A DNA stretch of 64,000 bases from Staphylococcus capitis subsp. capitis (GTDB lineage: Bacteria > Bacillota > Bacilli > Staphylococcales > Staphylococcaceae): the NCBI RefSeq assembly GCF_040739495.1, contig NZ_CP145263.1, positions 1,426,001 through 1,490,000 of the forward strand, written 5' to 3'. Below are positions 17,567-38,934 of the stretch, piece by piece. The position numbers were made by a program, and so were the translations under genes. Each line of letters opens with the position of its first letter. Position 1 is the stretch's first letter. Below the pieces are notes generated by a model. That model did no database searches, was not told the DNA's origin, and saw only the letters and a list, made by a program, of their open reading frames with translations.

Positions 17567-19081
17567 TTATTTGAAGTTTTCGTAAGTTTCATCTTCTTCA
17601 GTTTCTAAATCGATTTGATTAATATCAATACCTAAAGCTTTAGCTACACCTTTACCATAATCAGGATCTGCTTTATAACAATGACGAATATGACGTACTT
17701 TAACGTCTTCAGTTACCCCGTCCATTGCATTAGCTGTGTTAGTAAAGATACGTTCTTTTGCATCATCTGATTGTAGTCTGAATAACTTGCCTGGTTGTTC
17801 GAAATAATTGTCATCGTCTTGACGGAAATTATATTCATATCCATCGCCATCTACAGGGAATGATGGTTTTTTGAACTCAGGTTGAGAATCATATACGCCT
17901 TGGTTATTTGGATAATAGTGAGGTCCGCCACCTTGGTTGTTATCTAAGAAACGCATTTGACCATCACGACTGAATGGGCATAAGTTTTCAACTCCAACTC
18001 CTTTAGGTTGGTTGACAGGAATTTGCCAATGATTGACACCTAAACGATATCTCTGAGCGTCTCCATAAGAGAATAGTCGTCCTTGTAACATTTTATCTGG
18101 AGAAAAATCTAATCCCGGTACTATATTTGTTGGCGCAAAAGCAGCCTGTTCTACATCTAAGAAATAGTTTTCAGGATTGCGATTTAATTCAAATTCTCCA
18201 ACTTCAATTAAAGGATAATCATCTTTGTACCATACTTTAGTTAAGTCAAATGGATTGTGTGGATGGTTTTTAGCTTGTTCTTCTGTCATCACTTGGATAT
18301 ACATTTTCCATTTAGGATAATCGCCTTGTTCAATGGCATTAAATAGATCTCGTTGAGATGAATCTCTATCTCCACCTACAATTTCAGCGGCTTCTTCATC
18401 AGTATAATTTTCAATGCCTTGTTGTGTTCTAAAGTGGTATTTCACCCATACACGTTCTCCCGCATCATTATACATTGAATAAGTATGTGAGCCGAAACCA
18501 TGCATGTTACGGAAACCTTTAGGCATACCACGGTCTGACATTAGAATAGTTACTTGATGTAAAGATTCTGGAACACCAGTCCAAAAATCCCAGTTATTTT
18601 GAGGACTTCTCATGTTTGTACGTGGATCTCTCTTAACAGCACGATTTAAACTAATGAATAATTTAGGATCTCTAAAGAAGAACACTGGAGTATTATTCCC
18701 AACCAAATCCCAGTTACCATCCTCAGTATAGAATTTTAATGCGAATCCACGAATATCTCTTTCTAAGTCAGCAGCTCCACGTTCACCTGAAACTGTTGAA
18801 AAACGCGCAAACATTTCTGTTTGTTTGCCAACTTCAGAGAAGATTTTAGCATTTGTATATTGAGTAATGTCATTTGTTACAGTAAAAGTACCGAAAGCTC
18901 CAGAACCCTTTGCGTGCATACGTCTCTCAGGAATAACTTCTCTATCAAAATGTGACATTTGTTCTAAGTAATAAACATCTTGCATCAATAATGGACCACG
19001 TGGCCCTGCTGTCATACTATTTTCTCTATCTGATACTGGTGCACCAAATAGTCCAGTTAATCTACCATCTTGTTTAGACAT
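17567..19081 (-). CDS. katA: Catalase
   Basis: Haem catalase that splits hydrogen peroxide into water and oxygen. The 504-aa small-subunit type shows the active-site His56 in [13 protein letters not shown], the catalytic Asn in [12 protein letters not shown] near residue 129, and the proximal haem tyrosine in [14 protein letters not shown] near residue 338. The ATG follows GAGGGGGAGC. A PerR box overlaps the promoter. The gene is monocistronic, divergent from the LysP-like permease. Catalase activity is typical of staphylococci. Confidence 0.97.
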
Positions 19082-19108
19082 GACTAGCTCCCCCTCATAT
19101 TTTCTTAT

Positions 19109-19123
19109 TTGTAATAATTATAA
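19109..19123. promoter_or_regulatory. PerR box and -10 of katA
   Basis: On the minus strand TTATAATTATTACAA matches the PerR consensus TTATAATTATTATAA at 14 of 15 positions. The katA -10 TATAAT (19117-19122) lies inside it, so bound PerR would block polymerase. PerR control of katA is established in S. aureus. Confidence 0.85.
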
Positions 19124-19187
19124 TGTAATATATATTTTAAATAAACCCGTTTTGAATAGCAACTAAACGCATTTCCTATTTAAAATA

Positions 19188-19202
19188 AAATTTCAGAAAA
19201 TT
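19188..19202. promoter_or_regulatory. CodY box between katA and the permease gene
   Basis: AAATTTCAGAAAATT matches the CodY consensus AATTTTCWGAAAATT at 14 of 15 positions. It lies about 100 bp before the permease start and is more likely to serve that gene, given CodY control of amino-acid uptake. Confidence 0.7.
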
Positions 19203-19299
19203 TTTAAACATTTTCGCTTTAAAGTGCTAAAAAGTTATTGAATACTCAACTCAAAAAGATTAAAATGGTGGATATATTTAAATAGATGGGAGACACCAT

Positions 19300-20748
19300 A
19301 TGGAAGATAACAATATGAAACGTGGACTCAATTCGAGACACATATCCATGATTGCAATTGGTGGCGCTATCGGAACGGGATTATTTGTTGCAACTGGTAG
19401 TGTAATTTCGCAAGCAGGTCCCGGTGGCGCTATATTAGCTTATATACTAATAGGGATTATGCTTTACTTTTTAATGTCATCTATTGGAGAATTGGCAACT
19501 TTTTACCCAGTATCAGGATCATTTAGTTCTTACTCAACGCGCTTTGTTGATCCATCTCTAGGTTTCACGATGGGATGGCTATATTGGGGAATGTGGTCAC
19601 TCGTTACAAGTGTAGACGTTATTGTAGCATCGAATGTCCTCCAATTCTGGGACGTATTTAAAGTACTTAGTCCTCTAGTTTGGAGTTTAATATTTTTAAC
19701 TTTTATTTTCTTAATTAATATCTTTTCAGTCAAAGCTTTTGGAGAAACGGAATTTTGGTTATCACTTATCAAAGTAATAACAATAATTGTTTTTATCATC
19801 TTTGGCGTATTAATGATATTTGGTATATTAGGTGGCCATTCTTATGGTTTTGAAAATTATACTAAAGGTCAAGCACCATTTGTGGGTGGTATATCAGGAA
19901 TACTAAGCGTATTACTAGTAGCTGGTTTCTCTGTAGGTGGAACTGAAGTCGTCGCAGTTACCGCAGGCGAATCAAATAATCCTCAGAAATCGATGCCTAA
20001 AGCTATCAAACAAGTATTTTGGAGAATTCTTTTATTCTATGTATTATCTATCGCTGTGATAGCAGCTATTATACCTTATACAGATCCTTTATTATTAAAT
20101 GAGCATGAATCTGTTTCCCAAAGTCCGTTTACTATCGTATTTGATAGAATTGGAATCGCATTTGCTGCATCTGTCATTAATGCGGTTATCTTAACTTCAT
20201 TATTATCAGCAGCAAATTCAGGAATCTATACTACGAGTAGAATGCTATTTTCTCTAAGCGCCGATGGCCAAGCTCCTAAATTTTTCGGCAAATTAAATCA
20301 ACAAACGAAATTACCTATTCGTGCGTTAGTCACAACATACATTCTTATAATACTTGTTATAGTATATGCAAATTTCAATGCAAATGCTGTGTTTAATCTA
20401 TTAAACATAATTGGTTCAATGGTTATTGTAGTGTGGGGATCAAGTATTTGGTCTCAAATTAGATTGCGTCGCGCCATTAAACGTCAAGGTAAAAATCCTG
20501 ATGAATTACTACCTTATAAAGCACCGTTTTATCCAATAGGAGCAGTTATAGTAATTATTACATTATTTTTTTTACTATTAGGTAATTCTTACGGTAGTAT
20601 TATTACTGGAGATTTTTTAAGTGTTTTAAGAAACTTTGCACCTATTATTATTCTTGCAATTATTTATTTCGTGCATAAATTACTTAAACGCACGCATTTT
20701 GTAAAATTAGAAGAAATGGATTTAACTTCTCACAATTATAAAAATTAA
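19300..20748 (+). CDS. LysP-like amino acid permease (APC family)
   Basis: Proton-coupled amino-acid uptake protein with about 12 membrane helices, 482 aa. The N-terminus MKRGLNSRHISMIAIGGAIGTGLF and the block PGGAILAYILIGIMLYFLMSSIGELATFYPVSGSF resemble enterobacterial LysP closely, suggesting lysine or another basic amino acid; staphylococci have several such paralogues, so the substrate is uncertain. GGGAG precedes the ATG at 19300; an ATG 5 codons later is also possible. A CodY box upstream fits derepression during amino-acid starvation. No lysine riboswitch was seen in the 218-bp leader. Confidence 0.82.
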   Translation: MEDNNMKRGLNSRHISMIAIGGAIGTGLFVATGSVISQAGPGGAILAYILIGIMLYFLMSSIGELATFYPVSGSFSSYSTRFVDPSLGFTMGWLYWGMWSLVTSVDVIVASNVLQFWDVFKVLSPLVWSLIFLTFIFLINIFSVKAFGETEFWLSLIKVITIIVFIIFGVLMIFGILGGHSYGFENYTKGQAPFVGGISGILSVLLVAGFSVGGTEVVAVTAGESNNPQKSMPKAIKQVFWRILLFYVLSIAVIAAIIPYTDPLLLNEHESVSQSPFTIVFDRIGIAFAASVINAVILTSLLSAANSGIYTTSRMLFSLSADGQAPKFFGKLNQQTKLPIRALVTTYILIILVIVYANFNANAVFNLLNIIGSMVIVVWGSSIWSQIRLRRAIKRQGKNPDELLPYKAPFYPIGAVIVIITLFFLLLGNSYGSIITGDFLSVLRNFAPIIILAIIYFVHKLLKRTHFVKLEEMDLTSHNYKN

Positions 20749-20756
20749 TTTTATAA

Positions 20757-20790
20757 GCGATAGTTCTTTATAAGAATTGTCGCCTTTTTA
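20757..20790 (+). terminator. Permease gene terminator
   Basis: GCGATAGTTCTT pairs with AGAATTGTCGC (with a G-U) around a short loop and is followed by TTTTT, 9 bp past the permease stop. Confidence 0.85.
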
Positions 20791-20920
20791 TCTTATTTCT
20801 TTCATTAATCGATTGAATTCTTTTTAGAAAATAAACTTCTTTCATAGCAACTTTGAATATTTTATGTTTAAAAGTAATCATGTATAATATAAGTAATAAA
20901 AAGGTTTAGAGGTGGATAAC

Positions 20921-21235
20921 ATGGTTGGACAAACTAACTTATTCGATGATGTTATAAAACAAGATGAACGTTTTGTCATTGTGGTTCAAGCCCTTGAAGA
21001 AAAAAATGGTAATTTACTAAAACACACGTTAAGGGAATACCCTAGTTTAAAACATGATCAAATGAATGATTTATTTACACATCTCAAAGATGTATTTTTG
21101 GAAGAACCCTTTGAAGACAATCAATCAGCTTTTACTATTACAGTATATACAAACCTTGATTACGCTGCTGACCAAGTTTATGCACACGTCAAACGTTACA
21201 AAGGTAAACATGATTGGACACACACTGCCAAATAA
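20921..21235 (+). CDS. Conserved hypothetical protein, 104 aa
   Basis: Soluble acidic protein, 104 aa, with no membrane segment, signal or known motif that I recognise. It begins MVGQTNLFDDVIKQDERFVI and ends in a basic KRYKGKHDWTHTAK tail. The ATG at 20921 lies 5 nt after GAGGTGG; an in-frame GTG three codons earlier overlaps the ribosome site and is rejected. It is a single-gene unit with promoter-like sequence upstream (TATAATATAAG near 20883) and its own terminator. A gene at this place is usual in staphylococci, but the function is unknown. Confidence 0.7.
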   Translation: MVGQTNLFDDVIKQDERFVIVVQALEEKNGNLLKHTLREYPSLKHDQMNDLFTHLKDVFLEEPFEDNQSAFTITVYTNLDYAADQVYAHVKRYKGKHDWTHTAK

Positions 21236-21273
21236 AATAAGTCAAATATCAAATTATGATAATACAAAAATAT

Positions 21274-21309
21274 GGACTGGCAAGATTAACACCTCTTACC
21301 AGTCCTTTT
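21274..21309 (+). terminator. Terminator of the 104-aa gene
   Basis: GGACTGG (21274-21280) pairs with CCAGTCC (21299-21305), extended by AAGA/TCTT, followed by TTTT. Confidence 0.85.
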
Positions 21310-21352
21310 AATTATGTTTAAAGCTATATTTTTAGCAATTTTTTATTGTTAA

Positions 21353-22156
21353 TCAAATCAATTTCTTCAACATATGAGGAATACCTTCTGAGTCATTATC
21401 CAAGGTAACTTCATCGGCACTCTCTTTAAGTTCTTCACTAGCATTACCCATCGCAACGGAATAGCCAGCAACCTCAAACATAGATTGATCATTTAAACTA
21501 TCTCCAAACACCACTACTTCTTCTAGATTAATATTCTCTTTTTTGCATAGTGCTTTAATAGCATTTCCTTTGGAGACATCTTTAGCCATAAACTCTAAGA
21601 AAAATGGTTTACTAGTCGTTACATCTATATCCTTATTGAAAAAACCATTTAAATCTATACGTGCTTCAGTAATGTTACCTACATAATCTACGCCCATCAC
21701 TTTAGGAACATCACGAGAAATATAAGATTTAATATCTTTAACTCTTTTCATAGGTAGCCCTGTCAATTCAGATTCAATATTCATATATTCGTGATCGCTA
21801 TCATGGATAATATAACCGTTATCATACGTTAAAACTAGAAAGCCTCGTTCTCTACAATAATCTACAATTAAATCAAAATTATCTTTCGAAACTGTTTTAC
21901 TTACTTCAACTTCTTCATTAGACATTTTGATTGTTTTACCACCATTGTAGCTAATAATAAAACTCTCATTATGATTTAACTGCAATTCTCTAGCTACTGG
22001 AATCATCCCTTCCGTAGGTCTACCAGATGCTAAAACTACGCTATATCCTTTATCTTGAATATCAATCAAATATGATTTAGTTTCGGGTGACACTTCATTG
22101 TCGCTATTCATTAGAGTATCATCCATATCCAAAACTACCATTTTAAATTTACTCAT
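21353..22156 (-). CDS. Cof-type HAD phosphatase
   Basis: HAD-superfamily hydrolase of the Cof/YkrA type, 267 aa, expected to dephosphorylate sugar phosphates or related metabolites. Motif I is DMDDTL (about residues 10-15), motif II the S of LASGRP, motif III Lys near SKGNAIKALC, motif IV GDSLNDQSMFEVAG. The ATG beginning MSKFKMVVLDMDD was chosen over a TTG 11 codons upstream because GGAAGGAG lies between them. It follows thrB on the same strand and is likely co-transcribed with the threonine genes, yet it remains intact. The substrate is unknown. Confidence 0.88.
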   Translation of the reverse strand: MSKFKMVVLDMDDTLMNSDNEVSPETKSYLIDIQDKGYSVVLASGRPTEGMIPVARELQLNHNESFIISYNGGKTIKMSNEEVEVSKTVSKDNFDLIVDYCRERGFLVLTYDNGYIIHDSDHEYMNIESELTGLPMKRVKDIKSYISRDVPKVMGVDYVGNITEARIDLNGFFNKDIDVTTSKPFFLEFMAKDVSKGNAIKALCKKENINLEEVVVFGDSLNDQSMFEVAGYSVAMGNASEELKESADEVTLDNDSEGIPHMLKKLI

Positions 22157-22219
22157 ATAGCAAAAGAACTCCTTCCGTGACTTAATCAAAAATCATTCTT
22201 ATCCATATTTTACAATAAT

Positions 22220-23140
22220 TTAGGACTTTAGGTACACAACTTCTTCTATAACGCCGCTCTCATTAATTGTAGCAAGTTCAGAGGTACAATGAGTTATTTG
22301 ATCTCTTAGTACTCTAACTAATTCACCACTACGTTCTCTACGGCTTAAAGTTAAAATTGTAGGACCTGCACCGCTGATGACAGTTGCATATGCTTCGTGT
22401 TGTCGCGATAGTTGACGAACTTCTTCAAACTCTGGAATAAGATGCTGTCTAAATGGTTCATGAAACCCATCTTGTTCCATCATTTTACCTGCTAACTCAT
22501 ATTTATGTTGAATTAAAGCACATATCATAGTATTACTAATCGCACTATTTTGTACTGCTTTTCTGTAGGAAAAGGTTTCAGGCAAGGCATTTCTAGAGTC
22601 TTCAGTACGTAATTCGTAAGGCGGGATTGTTAAAATAATATCAACCTTAGGTACATCAATACGCGTAACATCTGTTACTTTAGTGTCCGGATTATAATAT
22701 CCAGAGATGAGTCCGCCATAGATTGTTGGAGCAACATTGTCAGGATGACCTTCAATTTCAGTAGCTAATTGTAATAACTCGTATTGCGATAATTGAATAT
22801 TACCAAAATAGTTTGCGATATATAAAGCGTCCACTAGCGCTGAAGCAGAGGAACCTAGTCCTCTAGCTAGTGGGATATCACTTCTCATTTCGATTTGTAA
22901 ACAAGGTAATGTTACATCATATTTTAATGCAACCTCTTGAGCAACTTTATAGATATAATTACTTTCATCTTTGGGTAATGTTTCTAATTCAGGACTTTAA
23001 TATAAGAATTCCCAATCATGTCCATCTATTTTTTTAATAGACATGTATAAATATTTATCTAGTGCCATTCCTATTGAATCAAAACCTACGCCTAAATTAG
23101 CAGTTGATGCCGGAATTTTAAGTTTCAAAACTTCTTCCAT
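22220..23140 (-). pseudogene. thrB: Homoserine kinase, broken by a nonsense codon
   Basis: Homoserine kinase phosphorylates homoserine before the last step to threonine. From ATG 23140 the reading runs 47 codons ([20 protein letters not shown]...) to TAA at 22997-22999. The same frame continues at once with [17 protein letters not shown] and the GHMP ATP loop [17 protein letters not shown] to a natural end at 22220, giving a full-length frame of about 306 codons. A single base change (a Tyr codon to TAA, judging from staphylococcal homologues) explains it. The restart at ATG 22888 would lack the N-terminal substrate region. Activity is very unlikely without suppression. Confidence 0.9.
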
Positions 23141-24202
23141 ATCAAATTGCCCTTTAATGTATTTGATTATACTGTCCTTGTCATTTGGTAACGGTTGAAT
23201 TGGGTTATCTAGTAAGGAGATTGCTGTATCTGGGTCTTTTAATCCATTACCAGTTAAAATAGCCACTACTTTTTTACCTTTAGGAAGTTTTCCTGCTCTG
23301 TGAAGTTTAATTAAACCTGCGATGGATGCGTTACTTGCTGGCTCACTAAATACACCTTCATTTGTAGTCATTAACTGATAAGCTTCAAGAATTTCGTCAT
23401 CTGTTACACTATCAATTAATCCATTAGATTCTTCTAACGCTTTAACTGCTTTCTGCCAACTTGCTGGATTACCTATACGGATAGCTGTCGCAACTGTTTC
23501 TGGATTTTTAATAACTTTATTTTGAACAATTGGAGCTGCGCCTGCTGCTTGGAAGCCGAATAATTGAGGTAATTGGCTACCTTTTTTCTCATTAAATTCT
23601 TTAAAACCTTTCCAATAAGCAGTAATATTCCCAGCATTACCAACAGGAATTGCTAATACGTCTGGAGCTTGTTCTAACTGTTCAACAATTTCAAACGCCC
23701 CAGTTTTCTGCCCTTCAATTCTAAAAGGATTCACTGAGTTTACTAATTCAATATCACTATTTTCTTCCGCTATTTCTTTTACAATTTCTAGTGCTTCATC
23801 AAAGTTCCCTTCAATTGAAACAATTTCTGCGCCATACATGACAGCTTGCGATAATTTTCCAAGTGCAATCTTACCTTCAGGAATAACTACAATTGCTTTC
23901 AAACCTGCTCGTGCAGCATAAGCTGCTGCTGAAGCCGATGTGTTTCCTGTAGATGCACATATCACTATCTTTTTGCCTTGTTCCTTAGCTTTAGTGACCG
24001 CCATAACCATGCCACGATCTTTAAATGATCCTGTAGGATTGGCACCTTCATATTTAACATACAACTCTATTTCAAGCTTTTCAGATAACTTTTTACAATA
24101 AATAAGTGGCGTACTGCCCTCGTTAAGGGTAATCTGAGGTGTTTCTTCGTTAACTGGTAAATACTCATTAAATTCTTGTACTAATCCTTGCCATCTTTTC
24201 AT
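22997..24202 (-). CDS. thrC: Threonine synthase, stop lost and fused to ThrB start
   Basis: Threonine synthase converts O-phosphohomoserine to threonine using PLP. The core is intact: the PLP lysine in [13 protein letters not shown], the phosphate-binding [13 protein letters not shown], and a full-length body of about 350 residues beginning [16 protein letters not shown]. The usual stop near IKYIKG is missing: the text reads GGGCAATTTGATATGG, where one more G would give GGG GCA ATT TGA. Translation therefore runs in frame into thrB and adds its first 47 residues, ending at the thrB nonsense codon (401 aa). The tail might be tolerated, but with hom and thrB broken the enzyme has no substrate from this locus. 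Confidence 0.85.
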
Positions 24203-24207
24203 ATTTA

Positions 24208-25481
24208 TTAAACTCCTTCTACAGGATAAATCTTTTCAACTTCATATCCTGATTTATTTAGAACATTCTCTGGAGATTGATCCAATCCTGTAATAATCAC
24301 TGCAACCGTATTATCGTCTCTTTCAACAATTTGAAGAGATTTATGTAACGGCAACTGCGCTTTAATGTCATTCTCGATTTTTTCAACAGTTAATTGATTA
24401 TTTTGTAAAACAACGTAGTAATTTAACTTTTCTTGGATTACTACTGGTTCTTCCCCATCCATCATCTCTCTTGTTTCATCGGTTTTTAATTCAAAATGAG
24501 GTGGCAACGTGTGAAGGTTCGATTCAAAGAATAAAGCAACATTGAGTAAATCACTTACTACAGCACTTCCCGTAGCTAAACTACCGGCACCTTTACCATA
24601 AAACATTGTGTCACCTACAGCATCGCCTACAACATAAATGGCGTTATATTCATTTTCAACAGCTGCAAGTTGATGCGTCTTATGAATAAGTGTTGGTTCA
24701 ACTGAAGCGTGAACATGACCATTTTCATAAGTACCTTTACCAATTAGCTTTATTTTAAAGCCTAATTGATCAGCAGCATTAATATCTGATAATGTAGTTC
24801 CACTAATACCAGTTAACTTCACATCATTAAGTTTAATCACTTGGTTAAATGATAGATAAGATGTAATAACAACTTTACGAGCAGCATCGACACCTTCTAC
24901 ATCATCTGTAGGGTCTGCTTCAGCAAACCCTAATCTTTGAGCTTCATCTAAAGCGTCTTCGAAATTTGTTTGCTCGCGTGTCATTTTAGAAAGAATAAAA
25001 TTAGAAGTTCCGTTCAAAATCCCCATAAATTTTGAAATATTATTAGCGTTCAAACCATTATTAATTGCATTAACAATTGGAATACCACCTGCAACACTTG
25101 CTTCAAATTTTAAGGCTACACCATTGCTCTCTGCTAAATCCTCCAACAGTTTTAAATGAACTGCTAATAAATCTTTGTTAGCAGTTATCACGTTTTTTTT
25201 TATGCAGTTCTTAACCAATCGACAGTAGGTTCTATACCACCCATAACTTCAACTACAATATCAATTGATTCGTCCCCTAATATCTCATCAATATCTTCAG
25301 TTAAATGATATTGGCTAATATTTAATGGACGTTTTTTTGATTTATCACGTACTAAAATATGCTTAATGACAATATCTTTATTGATGGTATCTTTAATTTG
25401 TTGCCTATTCTCCTCAATAATTTTTACAACACCTGATCCGACAGTTCCCAAACCAAGTAATGCAATATTCAATTCTTTCAT
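24208..25481 (-). pseudogene. hom: Homoserine dehydrogenase, frameshifted
   Basis: Homoserine dehydrogenase makes homoserine for threonine and methionine. The first 93 codons (MKELNIALLGLGTVGSGVV, a NAD(P) Rossmann motif) end at TAA 25200-25202 after DWLRTA. The remainder is in another frame, starting at KKNVITANKDLL and running through the catalytic domain and a C-terminal ACT domain to 24208. The break falls in a run of nine A (25193-25201). Total length is 2 mod 3, about 7 nt shorter than a typical 426-codon gene, so part of a short A-rich segment was probably lost. AGGAGG precedes the ATG. Confidence 0.92.
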
Positions 25482-25525
25482 GTATCATACCTCCTATTGT
25501 GCTTTTGATAAAAACAATTGTACAT

Positions 25526-25554
25526 TTGAAAAATACTAAATAATGGTTTAGTAT
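25526..25554 (+). promoter_or_regulatory. lysC promoter with overlapping palindrome
   Basis: TTGAAA (25526-25531), 17 bp, TAGTAT (25549-25554). The spacer and -10 form an inverted repeat, ATACTAAA-N6-TTTAGTAT (25533-25554), a candidate operator of unknown regulator. Confidence 0.5.
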
Positions 25555-25618
25555 AAAATCATTCTTAATTTTTGTAAAGTTCTTAATATTGAAAATATAA
25601 ATCTATAGTACCATGCTT

Positions 25619-25652
25619 AATCAGAAAACTGAATAGAATTTTCTGATTTTTT
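25619..25652 (+). terminator. Intrinsic terminator/attenuator ahead of lysC
   Basis: AATCAGAAAA (25619-25628) pairs perfectly with TTTTCTGATT (25639-25648) and is followed by TTTT, ending 17 nt before the lysC ATG. No gene upstream on this strand needs a terminator, so attenuation of lysC is plausible. The right arm also resembles a CodY box (12 of 15). No T-box motif or threonine-rich leader peptide was found. Confidence 0.55.
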
Positions 25653-25669
25653 AGAAAGGTTGATAGCTC

Positions 25670-27046
25670 ATGAAAGTTGCTAAATTCGGAGGTAGTTCTG
25701 TCTCCAATGCTAAACAAATTAAAAAAGTATTAGATATTGTAAATGAGGACCCTGAGCGCAAGATAATTATCGTTTCTGCCCCAGGAAAAAGAAGTAAAGA
25801 TGATACTAAAACAACTGATTTACTCATTCGTTTATATGAAAAAGTACTAAATGGTTTAGATTATCAAAGTAAGAAGAAAGAAATTATACAACGTTACGCT
25901 GATATTGTAAGAGAGTTAGTGATGGATAAAGAGATATTAACTACCATTGATGAAACGTTAGAACGATACATTAGTCAACTTTATGACAAACCTGCTCGTT
26001 TATATGATGCTTTATTATCTTGCGGAGAGGATTTTAATGCGCAATTAATTGCTTCATACAATAATAGTCAAGGTATTCCTACACGATACGTTTCTCCTAA
26101 AGAAGCTGGACTCACAGTGACAGATTTGCCACAACAAGCTCAAATTATAGATTCTTCATATGAGGATATTTATAAATTACGTGATTATAATGAAAAGCTT
26201 ATTATTCCCGGCTTCTTTGGAATTTCAAAAAATGATTATATTGTAACCTTCCCACGAGGTGGTTCAGATATTACTGGCGCTATTATCGCTAGAGGTGTAA
26301 AAGCATCACTTTATGAAAATTTCACTGATGTGTCAGGTATTTTCAAAGCAAACCCAACAATAATAGATAAGCCAGAGCTAATTGAAGAAATTACTTATAG
26401 AGAAATGCGGGAACTGTCATATGCTGGATTTGGAGTTTTTCATGATGAAGCTCTACAACCTTTATATAAAGATCGAATTCCTGTTGTAATAAAAAATACA
26501 AATCGTCCTAGCGATAAAGGTACTTATATTCGTCACGATAGAGAAATTAATTCAGAAAATGTAATTAGCGGTATAAGTTGCGACAAAGGCTTTACAGTTA
26601 TTAATATTAAGAAGTATTTGATGAATAGGTAGGTTGGATTTACATTAAAAATTCTAGCAGTATTAGAGGAGTTTAATATCTCATTCGATCATATGCCATC
26701 TGGTATTGATAATATCAGTATTATTATGCGTACTAATCAGATTAAAGGTAAGGAAAGTCAAGTTTTAAATGAAATAAGAAAACGGTGTGAGGTAGATGAA
26801 CTAAGCGTTGACCATGACTTATCTATATTAATGATTGTTGGAGAAGGAATGAATCAGGTAGTTGGTACAGCAAGTAAAATCACTCATGCACTTTCAGAGT
26901 CTAATATTAACTTGAAAATGATTAACCAAGGGGCTTCTGAAATATCAATGATGTTTGGTATACGAGTTGAAAATGCAGAGAAGGCTGTCCTTTCAACTTA
27001 TGAATTTTGTTACCATGGTATTTGTCTAAAAAATTTATGTTCATAA
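25670..27046 (+). pseudogene. lysC: Aspartate kinase of the threonine locus, nonsense codon
   Basis: Aspartokinase phosphorylates aspartate, the first step toward threonine, methionine and lysine. The frame from ATG 25670 holds the kinase domain (KFGGSS at 5-10, FPRGGSDITGA, DVSGIF) for 320 codons, then TAG at 26630-26632 replaces what should be a sense codon (GAG fits). The same frame continues with VGFTLKILAVLEEFNISFDHMPSGI and the ACT regulatory domains to 27046, giving the full 458-460 codon length. The truncated product keeps the catalytic domain but loses ACT control and probably stability. Staphylococci have a second aspartokinase in the dap operon, so lysine supply may survive. Confidence 0.9.
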
Positions 27047-27048
27047 AA

Positions 27049-27115
27049 CAAAAAGATTTCTACAATACATATACTACTTTAGTCTATTTTCAGTGTATGT
27101 CGTAGAAATCTTTTT
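27049..27115. terminator. Bidirectional terminator between lysC and the 197-aa gene
   Basis: AAAAGATTTCTAC (27051-27063) pairs with GTAGAAATCTTTT (27102-27114); A- and T-runs at the ends let it act on both convergent genes. It overlaps the last bases of the minus-strand gene. Confidence 0.8.
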
Positions 27116-27707
27116 ATGATATTTTCCTATTATTTATAACCGCTTCTTCAATGCGTTTCTTACCTACTACCAATTTTAAAATATAGAATTGATAATAACT
27201 GAGAGAATCAATCACAGCTTTATAATTTGAAAATTGATGATAATTTTGATCATCCATCAAATCATACATTAATACAATTTCAGGTTTGATATAATCTACA
27301 TTCCAGCTTAATGAATGAAAATAAATATTACTCTTCGGCAAGCGAATCTTACTATCTAATCTAAATATCCACTCATCATTTACTACATCATAAACAAAAA
27401 TATTGAGAACCATATTTCCATCTTTAAACACTTCGACATGGGCAACTTCAGGTAATGAAAGTTTTTTACTCTGTGGAACTATATTTGCTTTACTATAATA
27501 TTCTATAGTGAAATCTTTAGGTATAACTTTAAGGATTTCAATTAATTTTTTACGTTCAACGCAAATATCCACTTTGTTAGGTAACTTAAACTCATCATTT
27601 AAAAACAATTGCATCGCAACTTCGCCATGAAATTTAAATATATGAGTTGATGTATCCATTAATATCTTCACTATTTGATCTACAGGTTTTTGTGCTTCAA
27701 TTTTCAT
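27114..27707 (-). CDS. Hypothetical protein, possibly nucleotidyltransferase-fold
   Basis: A soluble 197-aa protein. The N-terminal part reads FKFHGEVAMQLFLNDEFK then PNKVDICVERKKLIEIL, loosely like the GG-x-A and D-x-D region of minimal nucleotidyltransferases (LinA or AbiEii type), and the tail IKPEIVLMYDLMDD...NYKAVIDSL resembles their C-terminal helices. However, the second catalytic acid is not evident, so this is only a fold guess and it may be inactive. AGAGGTG precedes the ATG. A perfect cre site sits just upstream, pointing to sugar control. Confidence 0.45.
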   Translation of the reverse strand: MKIEAQKPVDQIVKILMDTSTHIFKFHGEVAMQLFLNDEFKLPNKVDICVERKKLIEILKVIPKDFTIEYYSKANIVPQSKKLSLPEVAHVEVFKDGNMVLNIFVYDVVNDEWIFRLDSKIRLPKSNIYFHSLSWNVDYIKPEIVLMYDLMDDQNYHQFSNYKAVIDSLSYYQFYILKLVVGKKRIEEAVINNRKIS

Positions 27708-27722
27708 TCGTACACCTCTTTA

Positions 27723-27736
27723 AGCAAGCGCTTTCA
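27723..27736. promoter_or_regulatory. Perfect cre site ahead of the 197-aa gene
   Basis: On the minus strand TGAAAGCGCTTGCT matches TGWAARCGYTWNCW at all 14 positions. It lies 16 bp before the start codon, between promoter and ribosome site, where CcpA would block polymerase. Confidence 0.8.
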
Positions 27737-28040
27737 TAAATTTAATTATACATACGAAAATTACAATTATCAAACGTATATTTGTGAACATTTAGTAAAT
27801 TAAAATTAAAATTTTTATAAAGAATAGGCTTTGTATAAATATTAAATGTCAAAAAGAGTTATAATACGGTTTTTTGTATATCAATTAAAAATTTAAATTT
27901 CTTAAAGTTTTGTAAACATTAAATATAGCGCGAGTACGTTTAAGCATTATTTACACTCATAATCATTGAACTCGAAATTTAAGACGTATATAATTTGTTT
28001 TGAAATTAGAATTAAAATTTTAAGATTTGGGTGAATATTT
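27737..28040. other. Divergent intergenic region
   Basis: AT-rich 300 bp between the 197-aa gene (minus) and the NERD-like gene (plus). Apart from the adjacent cre site I see no clear operator, hairpin or small ORF. Confidence 0.4.
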
Positions 28041-28898
28041 ATGTCTGTAACGGTCATTTTATCTGTAATTATAATTATTTTGATTATAGCCATTGTCTTA
28101 AATCAAAGATATATGAAAGATAGAGTTGAGACTGAAGAGTACGCTAGAAACCAATTAATCGCTAAAAATTCAACTTTGAGCGAAGAAAATTTAGCTCTAA
28201 AGAATCAAATGTTAAGTTCTAATAACGATGTAGGACATCATGCATTTAAAAATGCTAAGCGTGAGTTACAAAAGATTTTGGACCGCTTTAAAGAAAACGG
28301 TCGTTTAAAAACATATTCAATTGTTTCTACAAATAATTTAGCTGTAAAGCATCCATTATTTGAATATGCACGATCATTTGATTTTATAATTGTTACTGAC
28401 GTAGGGCTTATCAATGTCGACGTTAAAAATTGGAACCAAAAAACTTTCTATCATTTCGACGTTCCTGACAAGCATTTTGAAGAGAGAAATCAACCTTATG
28501 AAACCGATCAGATTGTAGGTCACTATGTAAGTAGTAGATACCATAGCCAATTCAATACGACATGTACAGGTGTCTATACATTTACAGAAATCTTACAAGA
28601 TAATCGTGTGATTTACGAATTTTATGACCAAGATCCATACCAACAAGCTGCAAACAATGCTAAAGCATTTAAAGATCAAATAGAATCTGTTTATCAATTT
28701 AAGATTCAAAGTATCGGTGTTGTTTACTTCAGCGACGGTAGCGTCAATATTATCGAAGGTTCAGATGAAAGTGATAAATATGTAGATACGGTATCTACTC
28801 AATCTTCTCTTGAAAAGGTTATAGAAGATGCTGTACAACTTTCTAAGCACCCTCTCAACAATGTACAAGTACAAAAGATATCTGATAGTTTTAAATAA
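28041..28898 (+). CDS. Membrane-anchored NERD-like domain protein
   Basis: A 285-aa protein with an N-terminal membrane helix (residues 3-21), a short coiled coil (about 30-60), then a domain with FDFIIVTDVGLINVDVKNWNQKTFYHF. The pattern D...(D/E)xK with a following aromatic resembles the nuclease-related NERD domain, a PD-(D/E)xK relative; D-V-K would be the core. Function is not established for this family in staphylococci. The start ATG is preceded by TTTGGGTG. It is followed by the dispersed repeat. Whether it cuts nucleic acid is unknown. Confidence 0.6.
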   Translation: MSVTVILSVIIIILIIAIVLNQRYMKDRVETEEYARNQLIAKNSTLSEENLALKNQMLSSNNDVGHHAFKNAKRELQKILDRFKENGRLKTYSIVSTNNLAVKHPLFEYARSFDFIIVTDVGLINVDVKNWNQKTFYHFDVPDKHFEERNQPYETDQIVGHYVSSRYHSQFNTTCTGVYTFTEILQDNRVIYEFYDQDPYQQAANNAKAFKDQIESVYQFKIQSIGVVYFSDGSVNIIEGSDESDKYVDTVSTQSSLEKVIEDAVQLSKHPLNNVQVQKISDSFK

Positions 28899-28913
28899 CA
28901 TATGGAAGCTTAA

Positions 28914-29096
28914 AAAGAGAGTGGGACAGAAATATAATTTGTCAAAATTATTTTCGTTGTCCCACCCCAACTTGCATTGTTTGTAGAATTTCTTCCAAAA
29001 GAAATTCTCTATGTTGGGGCCCCGCGGCAAGGATGACTAGGATTGAAAGAAGCTTGATACAAGCGCACTTTCAATTCAGACATCTACTGCCAATAT
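28914..29096. repeat. Dispersed staphylococcal palindromic intergenic repeat
   Basis: The segment carries nested hairpins: GTGGGACAG with TTGTCCCAC (28921-28976), AGAATTTCT with AGAAATTCT (around 28985-29010), and CCCCAAC with GTTGGGG, followed by CCCCGCGG and then a stretch with an AAGCTTGATACAAGCGC-like hairpin. I recognise this from many intergenic sites in Staphylococcus genomes, where its role (terminator, RNA stability or mobile miniature) is unsettled. Confidence 0.75.
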
Positions 29097-29145
29097 GTTA
29101 AGTGAGGTTGAGACAACGAATTATGTCGCAGCCTCCTTTAATATA

Positions 29146-29682
29146 TTAACTCCATAAGTTCACTTTATTCTGTTTCGCCTCTTCTTGGGCTTTTATAAGA
29201 ATATTTCTATATTTACCATTTGGAGAATAGTATTTCTCTCTGGCTAATCCTTTTTCAACTAATTCTCTGTTAAACATCCTATTTTTACTTAGCCAAACAT
29301 AAGCCAAAGTTCGGCCATATCTATCATTTTTTTCTTTATCGTATTCTAAATAAACATACTTATGTGTTAACTCTTTCTTACTATAGTTTGATGCTTCTTT
29401 ACCATAGGGTTGAACAGGCGTATTTGGTTTAACCGTTTCTGGTGTATCCATACCAATCATTCTAACTTTAATACGCTCGCCATCTTTCTTAGCAAGAAAA
29501 GTATCCCCATCTACTACACGTTCAACATAAACTTTATCTTTTCCTTTTAAATCTGCGCTTAGATTTTTTTCATTTGATTGTTTACCGCCAAATGGACCTT
29601 CGTGGTTAATAAATTGAAAAAGTATGACTATTATTGCAATTAATGCCACAACAATTAGCGATAATCCTTTTTTTGATTTCAT
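29146..29682 (-). CDS. nuc2: Thermonuclease, membrane-anchored (Nuc2 type)
   Basis: Ca-dependent staphylococcal nuclease that degrades DNA and RNA. The 178-aa protein has an uncleaved-looking N-terminal membrane anchor (residues 8-27), then the OB-fold with RVVDGDTFLAKKDGERIKVRMIGMDTPE and DKEKNDRYGRTLAYVW. The catalytic Arg of VRMIG, the Glu of DTPE and the Arg of YGRT are present. The anchor and short linker match Nuc2 (also called NucI), which stays on the cell surface, rather than secreted Nuc. Start ATG beginning MKSKKG follows AAGGTGA. Confidence 0.9.
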   Translation of the reverse strand: MKSKKGLSLIVVALIAIIVILFQFINHEGPFGGKQSNEKNLSADLKGKDKVYVERVVDGDTFLAKKDGERIKVRMIGMDTPETVKPNTPVQPYGKEASNYSKKELTHKYVYLEYDKEKNDRYGRTLAYVWLSKNRMFNRELVEKGLAREKYYSPNGKYRNILIKAQEEAKQNKVNLWS

Positions 29683-29841
29683 AGCTGTCACCTTACTTCA
29701 CGTTATATTCTGATTTATGTTAATTAAAATTTAGTTTGGAGTCAATATGAAATTTAAACTGATTCATCATAAGCTTCTATTTATAGTTATTTTTCAAAAT
29801 GTAAGCTCATGCTATAATATGTAATGTTAGGAGTGAAATAG

Positions 29842-30030
29842 ATGGATTCATCTAATGAAAGCAAGATATCTTTAATCGCAATTATTGTAGCAATAATCAT
29901 AGGCGTAGTATTACAAATAGTATTTAAATTACCTATCATAGTAAGTGTAGTAGTAGCCATATTACTCGGAATTTTAGTTGGTTTCATTGTATATATTATT
30001 CAATCCACGCTAAATAAAAAGAAAAAGTGA
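29842..30030 (+). CDS. Small two-helix membrane protein, 62 aa
   Basis: A 62-aa protein made of a polar N-terminus (MDSSNESK), two closely spaced hydrophobic helices (about residues 9-28 and 31-53) and a lysine tail (LNKKKK). AGGAGTG precedes the ATG at ideal spacing and a TATAAT lies just upstream (29815-29820), so expression is likely. No known family is recognised. The gene lies divergent from nuc2. Confidence 0.7.
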   Translation: MDSSNESKISLIAIIVAIIIGVVLQIVFKLPIIVSVVVAILLGILVGFIVYIIQSTLNKKKK

Positions 30031-30167
30031 AAATCTACTATGTTAAAGAAACCTTAATATTCAATATATAATATTTAAATAATTTCTCTTAATTCCTTAA
30101 ATTAAATAAAGAGAAGTGTTATTAAATCAATTAAATAAACCAATTTATGATAATAAGGTACTATATG

Positions 30168-30195
30168 AGCCATACGCAATGCGTATGGCTTTTTT
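30168..30195 (+). terminator. Strong intrinsic terminator
   Basis: AGCCATACGC (30168-30177) pairs perfectly with GCGTATGGCT (30181-30190) around an AAT loop, followed by six T. It lies 138 bp past the 62-aa gene and most likely ends its transcript. Confidence 0.9.
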
Positions 30196-30563
30196 ATACA
30201 CAAAGACTAATACATAAAGTAAACGTAGCTGAAATGATATAAGAAAATTAGATTGATTAGTAAAAAACTAGTCATTCAAAAACACATTAAGTAGTTCTCA
30301 TTAAATAAATATATTTCCACTGTCTAGAAATCAAACTTAAGTTATTTTTTAAATCAGGAGTAAAAGTAATCTATAGTGGTATAGTTACAGAAACAGTATA
30401 CTGTCTATTTTTACAACTCATCTATTCAACTTTATTTTATAGAAGGACAAATTTTATAAATGTATCTCAGACATAAAAGTTGTAAGTAGATAAAGTCTAA
30501 ATTTATCAATAATTATATTGATAATAGCATATTTACAACACTTAATATGGGAGGTACAAAACG
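30196..30563. other. Gene-free stretch before the 61-aa gene
   Basis: AT-rich, 368 bp, with no ORF of note. It must contain the promoter of the 61-aa gene, but no convincing hexamer pair, operator or structured RNA was seen. Confidence 0.4.
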
Positions 30564-30749
30564 ATGGAAATTTTAGATTGTATTATCGACACAAATTCAG
30601 TCACATATGAGGTAAAGACATCTAAAGGGAAAGTGTTTCAACACACATTGAGTATTGAAACACCCACATATAAAGTTATAGAAATTTTAGCATTATTATC
30701 TGATTATGTAGATAAAACTGATCGTCCAAAATTAATAATTAAAAAGTAA
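30564..30749 (+). CDS. Hypothetical protein, 61 aa
   Basis: A small soluble protein beginning MEILDCIIDTNSVTYEVKTS, mixed beta then alpha in character, ending KLIIKK. GGGAGG lies 9 nt before the ATG, a strong ribosome site. It is convergent with the response-regulator gene, 16 bp apart, with no clear terminator between. No family is recognised. Confidence 0.65.
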   Translation: MEILDCIIDTNSVTYEVKTSKGKVFQHTLSIETPTYKVIEILALLSDYVDKTDRPKLIIKK

Positions 30750-30765
30750 GATATTTTATCAAAAT

Positions 30766-31368
30766 TTATATCCACCCTTTATCAATTCCTTTTTTCCATG
30801 CATCAAAGCGATTTTCAGAGCACATTTTATCAATAATCGTACTTGTGTAATTACGCACTGTCCCATTAGACAAATAAAGTTTTTCAGCAATTTCTTTACT
30901 ACTCAACCCATTGCCTATCTCTCTTAATACAACTTGTTCTTTATGCGTTAATGGATTTGACTCAGTAAATAAAGTAGTCATCAATGATGTACTATATTCT
31001 TTTTCACCCTTCATCACTTTATAAATCGTATTCACTAAATCTTCTACAGAACGTTCTTTCAACACATAGGCATCTACATCATTGGCAACAGCCTTTTCGA
31101 AATAGCCAGGTCGCTTGAATGTCGTAACAATGATAACCCGTGTATTTAATCCTTTAGCTCGAATTTGAGCCAAAATTTCCAACCCAGTCATACCAGGAAT
31201 CTCAATATCTAAGATTGCCACATCAGGCTGTTTATTTTCGATCAATTGAAGTGCTTCTTCACCATTTTCGATATCGTTTAAAACTTTCATATCCTCATGC
31301 ATTTCAATAAGTTGTACCATTGCTTGTCTTAACATTAATTGGTCTTCAGCTATCACCAGTGATATCAC
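30766..31368 (-). CDS. Response regulator, NarL/YvfU type
   Basis: A 200-aa two-component regulator. The receiver domain has the phosphorylated Asp54 in VAILDIEIPGM and the Lys of VLKERS; the C-terminal LuxR-type HTH reads [40 protein letters not shown]. Its start overlaps the stop of the kinase gene by 4 nt. With the kinase and ABC genes it matches the Bacillus yvfRSTU arrangement, in which the system controls its own exporter. The signal is unknown. Confidence 0.88.
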   Translation of the reverse strand: MISLVIAEDQLMLRQAMVQLIEMHEDMKVLNDIENGEEALQLIENKQPDVAILDIEIPGMTGLEILAQIRAKGLNTRVIIVTTFKRPGYFEKAVANDVDAYVLKERSVEDLVNTIYKVMKGEKEYSTSLMTTLFTESNPLTHKEQVVLREIGNGLSSKEIAEKLYLSNGTVRNYTSTIIDKMCSENRFDAWKKGIDKGWI

Positions 31369-32465
31369 ATTAATTCACTCCTAGGAATTTGAACTGTTAT
31401 TGTAGTACCTTCATTTGATTGAACTTTAACTTCCCCATTTAAATAAGCGGTACGTTCTTTAATACTTTTAAGCGCGCTTGCCTCGTCATCATTAATCCCT
31501 ACCCCGTTATCACTCACAATCAATGTCATTTCATGATGCTTCTCTATAATTTCCCCTACAACTTCTGTGGCATTGGCATGTTTAATTACATTATTAATCG
31601 CTTCTCTTAATATCATCGATAATATGGATTGTTTGGCCGGATTTAATGACCTTGCAGCACTTTTATTTTTGAAAATAAAATTTAAATTCGCATCGTGAAG
31701 AATAGATGCTACAGATGAAACTTCCTCTTCAAATGATTGCACCTTCAAGTCGTCTATAATCGTGCGTACTTTATTAAGTGTCTCTCTTGATAAATCATTA
31801 ATGGCTCGCATTTCATTTCTAGCTGCTTCTTTGTCGGTATCGAGGAGTTTTGTTGCAAGTTCTGATTTCAACGTTAGACTTGCAAACACATGGCCTAGAG
31901 TATCATGGAGATCTTGACCAATGCGATTGCGTTCTTGTTCTGCTATAAGGACATTAATATATTTGTTCTTCTCTTCAAGTTCTTTACGTACCTTACGATC
32001 TTTGCGCACTTGAAAATTACCAAACGCAATCATCAATATGACAATATAATATATTATCATCGTATACACATATTCATGATGGGTGATATAGGTGAACAAA
32101 GCACATAGTATCATTGTAGTAACAAAACTTATAAATTCTTTTGATTTCACTCCCACATCGAAAATGAAGGGTAATGCAAATGCACTATAAAAAAAGAACA
32201 TACTTAATAATGGTTCATAAGCATAAACAAAATACATAATGCAGAGATAATGGATAAGCAAAAAGATATATAAATGATTTTTGTTCAACTTAGTGTGAAG
32301 TAGAACTAAAATTAAATATGAGATTGTAAAGATAGCTAAAACAATAATATATACCAACATATTATAATGATGTTCATTATAAAATAATCCAAATATCGGA
32401 AATATTAAATATACAAGTGAAGAAATTTCACCCATCCTTACTCCAAAACCACGTTTAGATCTCAT
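31365..32465 (-). CDS. Sensor histidine kinase, DesK/YvfT type
   Basis: A 366-aa membrane kinase with about five hydrophobic segments in residues 15-150 and no large extracellular loop. The HisKA_3 domain holds His187 in ERNRIGQDLHDTLGHVFASL; the ATPase domain has REAINNVIKHANATEV and VSDNGVGI. The ATG follows the permease stop directly (TAAATG). Kinases of this form sense membrane state or compounds within the membrane. It is co-transcribed with the exporter and regulator. Confidence 0.88.
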   Translation of the reverse strand: MRSKRGFGVRMGEISSLVYLIFPIFGLFYNEHHYNMLVYIIVLAIFTISYLILVLLHTKLNKNHLYIFLLIHYLCIMYFVYAYEPLLSMFFFYSAFALPFIFDVGVKSKEFISFVTTMILCALFTYITHHEYVYTMIIYYIVILMIAFGNFQVRKDRKVRKELEEKNKYINVLIAEQERNRIGQDLHDTLGHVFASLTLKSELATKLLDTDKEAARNEMRAINDLSRETLNKVRTIIDDLKVQSFEEEVSSVASILHDANLNFIFKNKSAARSLNPAKQSILSMILREAINNVIKHANATEVVGEIIEKHHEMTLIVSDNGVGINDDEASALKSIKERTAYLNGEVKVQSNEGTTITVQIPRSELM

Positions 32466-38258: not shown

Positions 38259-38934
38259 TTATTTACTAATAAAACTTGCATAATCATACTTTTTCTAAAC
38301 ATAATTATGTGCTTTTATATATGAATAATTATACTTATTCATTAAATAGTGTTCAATAACTTCATGACGTAATAATATAAAATCTTGCTCTTTTATATTT
38401 TTTCCTTCTCTTAAACGTTGCCAACTTAAAGCTATATTAAAGTCGGGGAAAAATTTATCTCTTTTATTTCCTAATTTATAGATGTTTTCAAATAAATGTT
38501 CATAAACTCTTTCTATTAATTTTTGATTATATCCAGTATTATTTGATATTACTTCAATTTCTCTTTTTTATTTCTATTTAATACTGACTTATAATATTTC
38601 ATTGCATGCTTATCTCTTTTTGAATGATAAGGATCATTGATGTCGTTTAATGCTCCTGCCTTACGTACTAAACTCTGTTTATCTTCTATCTGATACTTAC
38701 CTTTACGCTCAGTAAAGAATTTATCCCGCCAGTTTCCCATTTGTGGCACTGTAGTACTTCTACACCAAGGGTGCATAGGGGGTGCATTAATGCCAGGTGT
38801 CATATCTTTTATTTTAAATACTTTGCCGTTAAAGAGTGACAAATTTTAGATGTTTTCTTGTCTATTTTAGCCACATATTTATATTCGCCATCTTCACCTA
38901 ATTCTTTTAGATAAGTAAGCTTCTGTGATTCAGC
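38259..38934 (-). pseudogene. Phage minor head protein with toxin-like C-terminus
   Basis: Only the C-terminal 230 codons remain. Part one (38934-38830) reads KIDKKTSKICHSL, part two PGINAPPMHPWCRSTTVPQMGNW, together the end of a gp7/F-type head morphogenesis domain. Then comes HAMKYYKSVLNR followed by IEVISNNTGYNQKLIERVYE, FFPDFNIALSWQRL and LLRHEVIEHYLM, a domain I associate with toxin-like tails of phage head proteins. Lesions: one missing base near 38829-38833, one in the A6 run at 38564-38569, and TAG at 38295-38297; the ancestral stop is TAA 38259. The 5' part is deleted at 38935, beside the glnA terminator. Confidence 0.75.

Follow-up and report, generated by a model that had tools for sequence, protein, structure and literature searches.

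In Staphylococcus saccharolyticus, which belongs to the same clade as Staphylococcus capitis, about 21% of the coding sequences are inactivated (PMC7953294). Reports on strain 13T0028 of this human-skin species describe genes of amino-acid biosynthesis turned into pseudogenes by nonsense and frameshift mutations (PMC6423177, PMC8066136, PMC7953294), and the strain is predicted to be an auxotroph for most amino acids (PMC8066136). S. capitis itself is a common skin commensal and is also described as a hospital pathogen of newborns (PMC5157051). Here, we compare with its relatives the lysC / hom-thrC-thrB locus (hereafter the thr locus) in a 64-kb stretch of DNA (hereafter the window), which covers bases 1,426,001-1,490,000 of a chromosomal contig. 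The genome, 2.48 Mb in four contigs, very probably belongs to Staphylococcus capitis subsp. capitis, strain DSM 20326. Two of its small contigs match DSM 20326 plasmids, C1 over 20,000 of its 21,426 bases with one gap and C4 over 9,275 bases with one mismatch; on these matches S. saccharolyticus, considered at first for its known genome decay, was rejected as the source. The genes thrB, thrC and hom follow in this order on the minus strand and lysC is divergent on the plus strand, an arrangement shared with S. caprae, whose locus has 83% nucleotide identity to that of the window. Whereas all four genes are open in S. caprae, each of them carries a lesion here.

We consider it likely that S. 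capitis is beginning to lose its thr locus. The threonine branch would no longer be needed, with skin presumably supplying threonine, and inactivating mutations would accumulate singly, the lysC and thrC-thrB changes being common to other alleles and hom being still variable. Such a strain would be without threonine synthesis, its ThrB being cut at codon 48, but would keep lysine synthesis, and it would lose homoserine and methionine only if the A tract really puts hom out of frame. The prediction to be tested is thus threonine auxotrophy, lysine prototrophy and a conditional methionine need. The locus also illustrates how a pathway may start failing, i.e., with branch steps lost while the shared first step survives via a second enzyme. 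The whole case is ordinary gene loss in a pathway, with no new kind of system.

Lesions in the four genes

The original prediction, made from the letters of the window and their open reading frames (ORFs), had assigned a different lesion to each gene: a nonsense codon in lysC, a frameshift in hom, a lost stop in thrC and a nonsense codon in thrB. All four lesions are present where they were placed, although the lost stop of thrC turns out to be a frame shift. They are also separate, as had been claimed, but of unequal weight, since they are clearly fatal only in hom and thrB.

The homoserine kinase gene thrB (22220-23140, minus strand) is 89% identical to S. caprae ThrB across 306 codons and contains a single TAA (22997-22999) at codon 48 of 306. 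An ORF of 222 amino acids (aa) downstream of this stop (22220-22888, minus strand) matches positions 86-299 of the 304 positions of the homoserine kinase family TIGR00191, without about the first 84 residues, and with the TAA at codon 48 no frame is open over the whole profile. In the genome as a whole, thrB and thrC are present in one copy each and no second copy scores over the family cut-off, the four sub-cut-off matches for each gene not being counted. Because ThrB is cut early and no other thrB exceeds the cut-off, threonine synthesis should fail whatever the state of the other genes. The threonine auxotrophy foreseen in the original prediction therefore holds up as a prediction, with ThrB ending at codon 48 and no spare copy.

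The adjoining thrC (23150-24202, minus strand) has an unmutated stop codon, and its lesion is a one-base shift. The run of G at the end of the gene (23150-23152, minus strand) counts three G here versus four in the aligned sequences of S. caprae, the reference genome G022 and S. saccharolyticus. Because this run is one base shorter, thrC is in frame with thrB and the two form one 401-codon ORF (22997-24202, minus strand), which contains a complete threonine synthase followed by the first 47 thrB codons. The fused ORF of 401 aa scores 350 bits against the threonine synthase family TIGR00260 (cut-off 167) and covers positions 1-295 of 295 of PF00291, i.e., the whole PALP domain, which places it in this family. 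Measured as open frame, thrC is 412 codons long here, compared with 355-377 codons in the 83 other genomes of the genus. In a database protein (P0001), thrC and thrB are fused as they are here and thrB ends identically, together with two other differences from the window.

The aspartokinase gene of the locus, lysC (25670-27046, plus strand), is 92% identical to S. caprae LysC across all 458 codons and is interrupted by a single in-frame TAG (26630-26632) at codon 321 of 458. The N-terminal ORF of 320 aa (25670-26632, plus strand) holds the whole AA_kinase domain in residues 2-276 (positions 3-234 of 234 of PF00696), and the downstream ORF of 117 aa (26693-27046, plus strand) holds the ACT regulatory domains (PF22468, PF13840, PF01842). 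Both pieces match the NCBIfam aspartate kinase family NF006540, but the kinase and ACT parts do not share one open frame, the 320-aa kinase ORF being apart from the 117-aa ACT ORF. Another database protein (P0241) ends at the identical lysC codon and has one other residue unlike the window. As an observation in its own right, the region 26630-27046, where the stop parts an intact kinase from its ACT domains, is a natural experiment on an aspartokinase that is either deregulated or dead.

Second copies, which the original prediction had wanted sought, are absent over the cut-off for hom, thrB and thrC. Of aspartokinase, the genome has a second, open gene at C3:1,379,089-1,380,273. It is adjoined by open ORFs of 239-329 aa that we read as asd, dapA, dapB and dapD, the names being taken from the translations without a family search and the lengths not having been set against relatives. 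Because the kinase domain of LysC is whole and the second aspartokinase and its adjoining ORFs are open, the lysine branch looks untouched, and the strain is predicted to be still able to make lysine.

The fourth gene, hom (24208-25481, minus strand), changes frame at a nine-A tract (25193-25201, minus strand; T on the plus strand) and terminates at codon 94 of its 426. Apart from this tract, the window contains a single A/T run of nine or more bases. The N-terminal piece of 93 aa (25200-25481, minus strand) matches positions 2-94 of the homoserine dehydrogenase family NF004976, and the C-terminal piece of 336 aa (24208-25218, minus strand) matches positions 98-396 of the same family as well as positions 1-173 of 173 of PF00742. 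The NAD-binding and catalytic parts thus lie in two frames rather than in one. A profile search found one copy of hom in the genome and no second one over the cut-off. On the methionine side, the metX match is open; its score lies below the family cut-off, as it does likewise in nine matching control genomes.

Focus of the damage within the genome

To place these lesions against their background, a screen was made with S. caprae ORFs of at least 80 aa, and matches of less than 60% identity were dropped. In the window, 4 of 54 matched ORFs were flagged: lysC, hom, thrB and, at 38672-38934, a remnant. Three of the four genes of the locus are thus flagged versus 1 of the 50 other ORFs (Fisher p = 0.0006); thrC, whose coding sequence is whole, was scored as unbroken in this test. 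The lesions in this single pathway thus exceed the background rate, and the clean flanks described in the original prediction are confirmed. The same screen against G022 flagged 7 of 51 ORFs: lysC, hom, thrB, the remnant, two reference ORFs and one short ORF; our reading of two of these cases is that the reference ORFs are merely longer at their starts. Four other 20-kb stretches of the genome gave 2 flagged among 44 matches, one stretch being without matches, probably because the reference is non-syntenic there.

The extent of inactivation reported for S. saccharolyticus, a related species of the same clade, raises the possibility that the decay of the thr locus is part of a genome-wide reduction as in that species (PMC6423177, PMC7953294). 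However, in the syntenic region of S. saccharolyticus 13T0028 (G059, L050-L053), 14 of 59 S. caprae orthologues are flagged and none of them is a thr gene. Decay in 13T0028 is genome-wide and its thr locus is open, whereas decay in S. capitis is focal and lies in the thr locus. Because the S. saccharolyticus locus is open despite the 14 flagged orthologues, its pattern is not that of the S. capitis window, where three of the four flagged ORFs belong to the thr locus. A reduction of this kind would have about 20% of genes inactivated; in the window and the four sampled stretches taken together, which are a sample of the genome, 6 of 98 ORFs are flagged, three of them in the thr locus. S. capitis TE8 is reported to have 41 pseudogenes (PMC5585272). 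With only 1 of 50 non-locus window ORFs broken, the ORF screen led us to reject genome-wide decay as the principal cause, and we regard this explanation as very improbable. The contrast is that the thr locus persists in a heavily decayed relative and is being lost from a genome that is otherwise largely intact.

Weighing the case for loss

Four groups of observations weigh against an early stage of loss or limit how far it can be generalized. First, relaxation of selection is not visible in substitution rates. The omega values to S. caprae are 0.031-0.069 for the four genes, which is ordinary compared with the median of 0.040 and the 90th percentile of 0.086 for 48 other genes, and these values are rough because the synonymous divergence (dS) from that species is close to 1 or exceeds it. 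Intact counterparts, to which the original prediction had pointed for comparison, exist in S. caprae with its four open genes and in S. capitis itself, where full-length LysC (P0242), Hom (P0142) and ThrC (P0002) are 95%, 96% and 98% identical to the window proteins and differ from them by being full length. A three-way protein comparison of the window, full-length versions from S. capitis and, as outgroup, S. caprae, covering lysC, hom and thrC, gave window-only versus sister-only replacements of 10 versus 7, 7 versus 5 and 4 versus 1, respectively. The pooled counts of 21 versus 13 show no significant excess (p = 0.23). The lesions accordingly look young, as had been claimed, there being no measurable rise in protein change. 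As to the accompanying claim of relaxed selection, we draw it from the clustering of lesions in one pathway (3 of 4 versus 1 of 50) and not from the substitution rates, which are unremarkable.

Second, hom is open in most of its nearest relatives in the protein database. Among 21 database proteins of at least 98% identity (P0121-P0141), 20 are open across the tract, and these 20 occur on 118 contigs; two fixed motifs are separated by 4 to 7 residues in them, and their total lengths are 421 to 426 aa. The remaining one (P0139, 327 aa) starts at the codon directly past the tract and has one residue unlike the window; it probably reflects a broken hom frame in an independent allele, although a cut-off gene could also account for it, and its cluster of 76 is represented by P0139 alone. 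Because most of the matching proteins are open there, the hom break appears less settled than the other three lesions. The site is mutable and apparently polymorphic within the species, and the shift in this assembly may be uncommon or may stem from a slip in assembly. The methionine dependence suggested in the original prediction would follow if hom is truly out of frame, but it is uncertain and conditional, because the tract is length-variable and open in 20 of the 21 close proteins.

These results bear on whether the lesions, or some of them, stem from assembly or sequencing error. The hom and thrC lesions are homopolymer frame shifts, hom is open in nearly all near-identical database proteins, and the assembly differs from the DSM 20326 plasmid record by one indel. 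However, this single indel lies outside long homopolymers, the lysC and thrB lesions are substitutions, and 49 of the 50 other matched window ORFs are unflagged. Moreover, the lysC end (P0241) and the thrC-thrB fusion with its thrB stop (P0001) recur in proteins which represent independent alleles, because they carry the same lesions with other residue differences, and P0139 fits a broken hom elsewhere. Such error is at most likely for hom, and as an account of the locus we judge it improbable.

Third, two of the altered genes may still yield working enzymes: the truncated LysC kinase may be functional, and so may ThrC, which is complete with an added tail. Extended to all four genes, this would mean a locus that is altered yet working, with a LysC freed from feedback because its ACT domains are lost, a tailed ThrC, a hom rescued by slippage on the A tract and a ThrB that arises from a restart. 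The whole LysC kinase and ThrC PALP domains are consistent with such a locus, as is the long, length-variable tract of hom. ThrB is, however, the step hardest to explain away, since the 222-aa ORF available for a restart is without about the first 84 residues and no other thrB is present over the cut-off. A working locus accordingly has little probability in our estimation.

Fourth, the early loss that we favor is described for one genome. Its assignment to DSM 20326 is likely rather than proven, because the 9-kb plasmid of strain H17 is almost as close, and the threonine auxotrophy is well predicted from the sequence. This chromosome was the only one of S. capitis in the comparison, and counts in the protein database do not translate into species-level frequencies, because a broken gene leaves a shortened protein prediction or none at all and the members of a cluster are not shown.

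The locus in other staphylococci

All 80 other Staphylococcus genomes covered by a protein search for hom have an open gene. Among 83 other genomes, thrC was flagged in none, lysC in 15 and thrB in 9, and the four genes were scored again in all 23 flagged loci, the realignment disregarding the outer 4-6% of every gene. The flagged stops in lysC of 11 genomes and in thrB of 9 proved to be terminal or did not appear in this realignment, except for the thrB stop of G075, which is well within the gene; G075 is S. hominis NCTC 11320, its locus being contained exactly in that of the named record L008. This leaves lysC truly split in 4 of 83 and thrB truly broken in 1 of 83, and no other genome of the 83 (80 for hom) has two broken genes of the locus.

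The thrB of S. hominis NCTC 11320 (L008:10017-10967) resembles that of the window in lying in a four-gene locus and in having an internal stop, at codon 95 of 306. It differs in the site of the stop and in that thrB alone is broken, lysC, hom and thrC being open. Because the site differs (codon 95 versus codon 48), the S. hominis stop is an independent loss. A broader and rather doubtful possibility is that the loss of threonine synthesis is convergent and ongoing in human-skin staphylococci, S. capitis and S. hominis having independently lost homoserine kinase, that the host, or neighbours in which the locus is retained, supply threonine, and that the hom A tract acts as a reversible, strain-level homoserine/methionine switch atop the loss of thrB. 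The amino-acid needs of skin staphylococci were reportedly described by Emmett and Kloos in 1975, and that work may already hold the phenotype. No report of the S. capitis lesions themselves was found in the open-licence papers searched.

Separately, in four loci (L114, L115, L116 and L117, from G018, G052, G061 and G040, respectively, of which G061 is S. pragensis) lysC is split by a frame change and the rest of the locus is open, as if the thr-locus aspartokinase were dispensable in four other species.

Two further observations concern the surroundings of the locus. The remnant at 38672-38934, the one broken ORF outside the thr locus that the screen against S. caprae revealed in the window, has a counterpart in S. 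caprae with phage-Mu-F-like and Ntox50 (bacterial toxin) domains. A search of positions 18000-32000 for an RNA leader gave no match at the gathering threshold except the staphylococcal small RNA (sRNA) S35 (Rfam RF02894), which lies at 28903-29124 with 113.7 bits and adjoins a gene (28041-28898) with a weak NERD-domain match.

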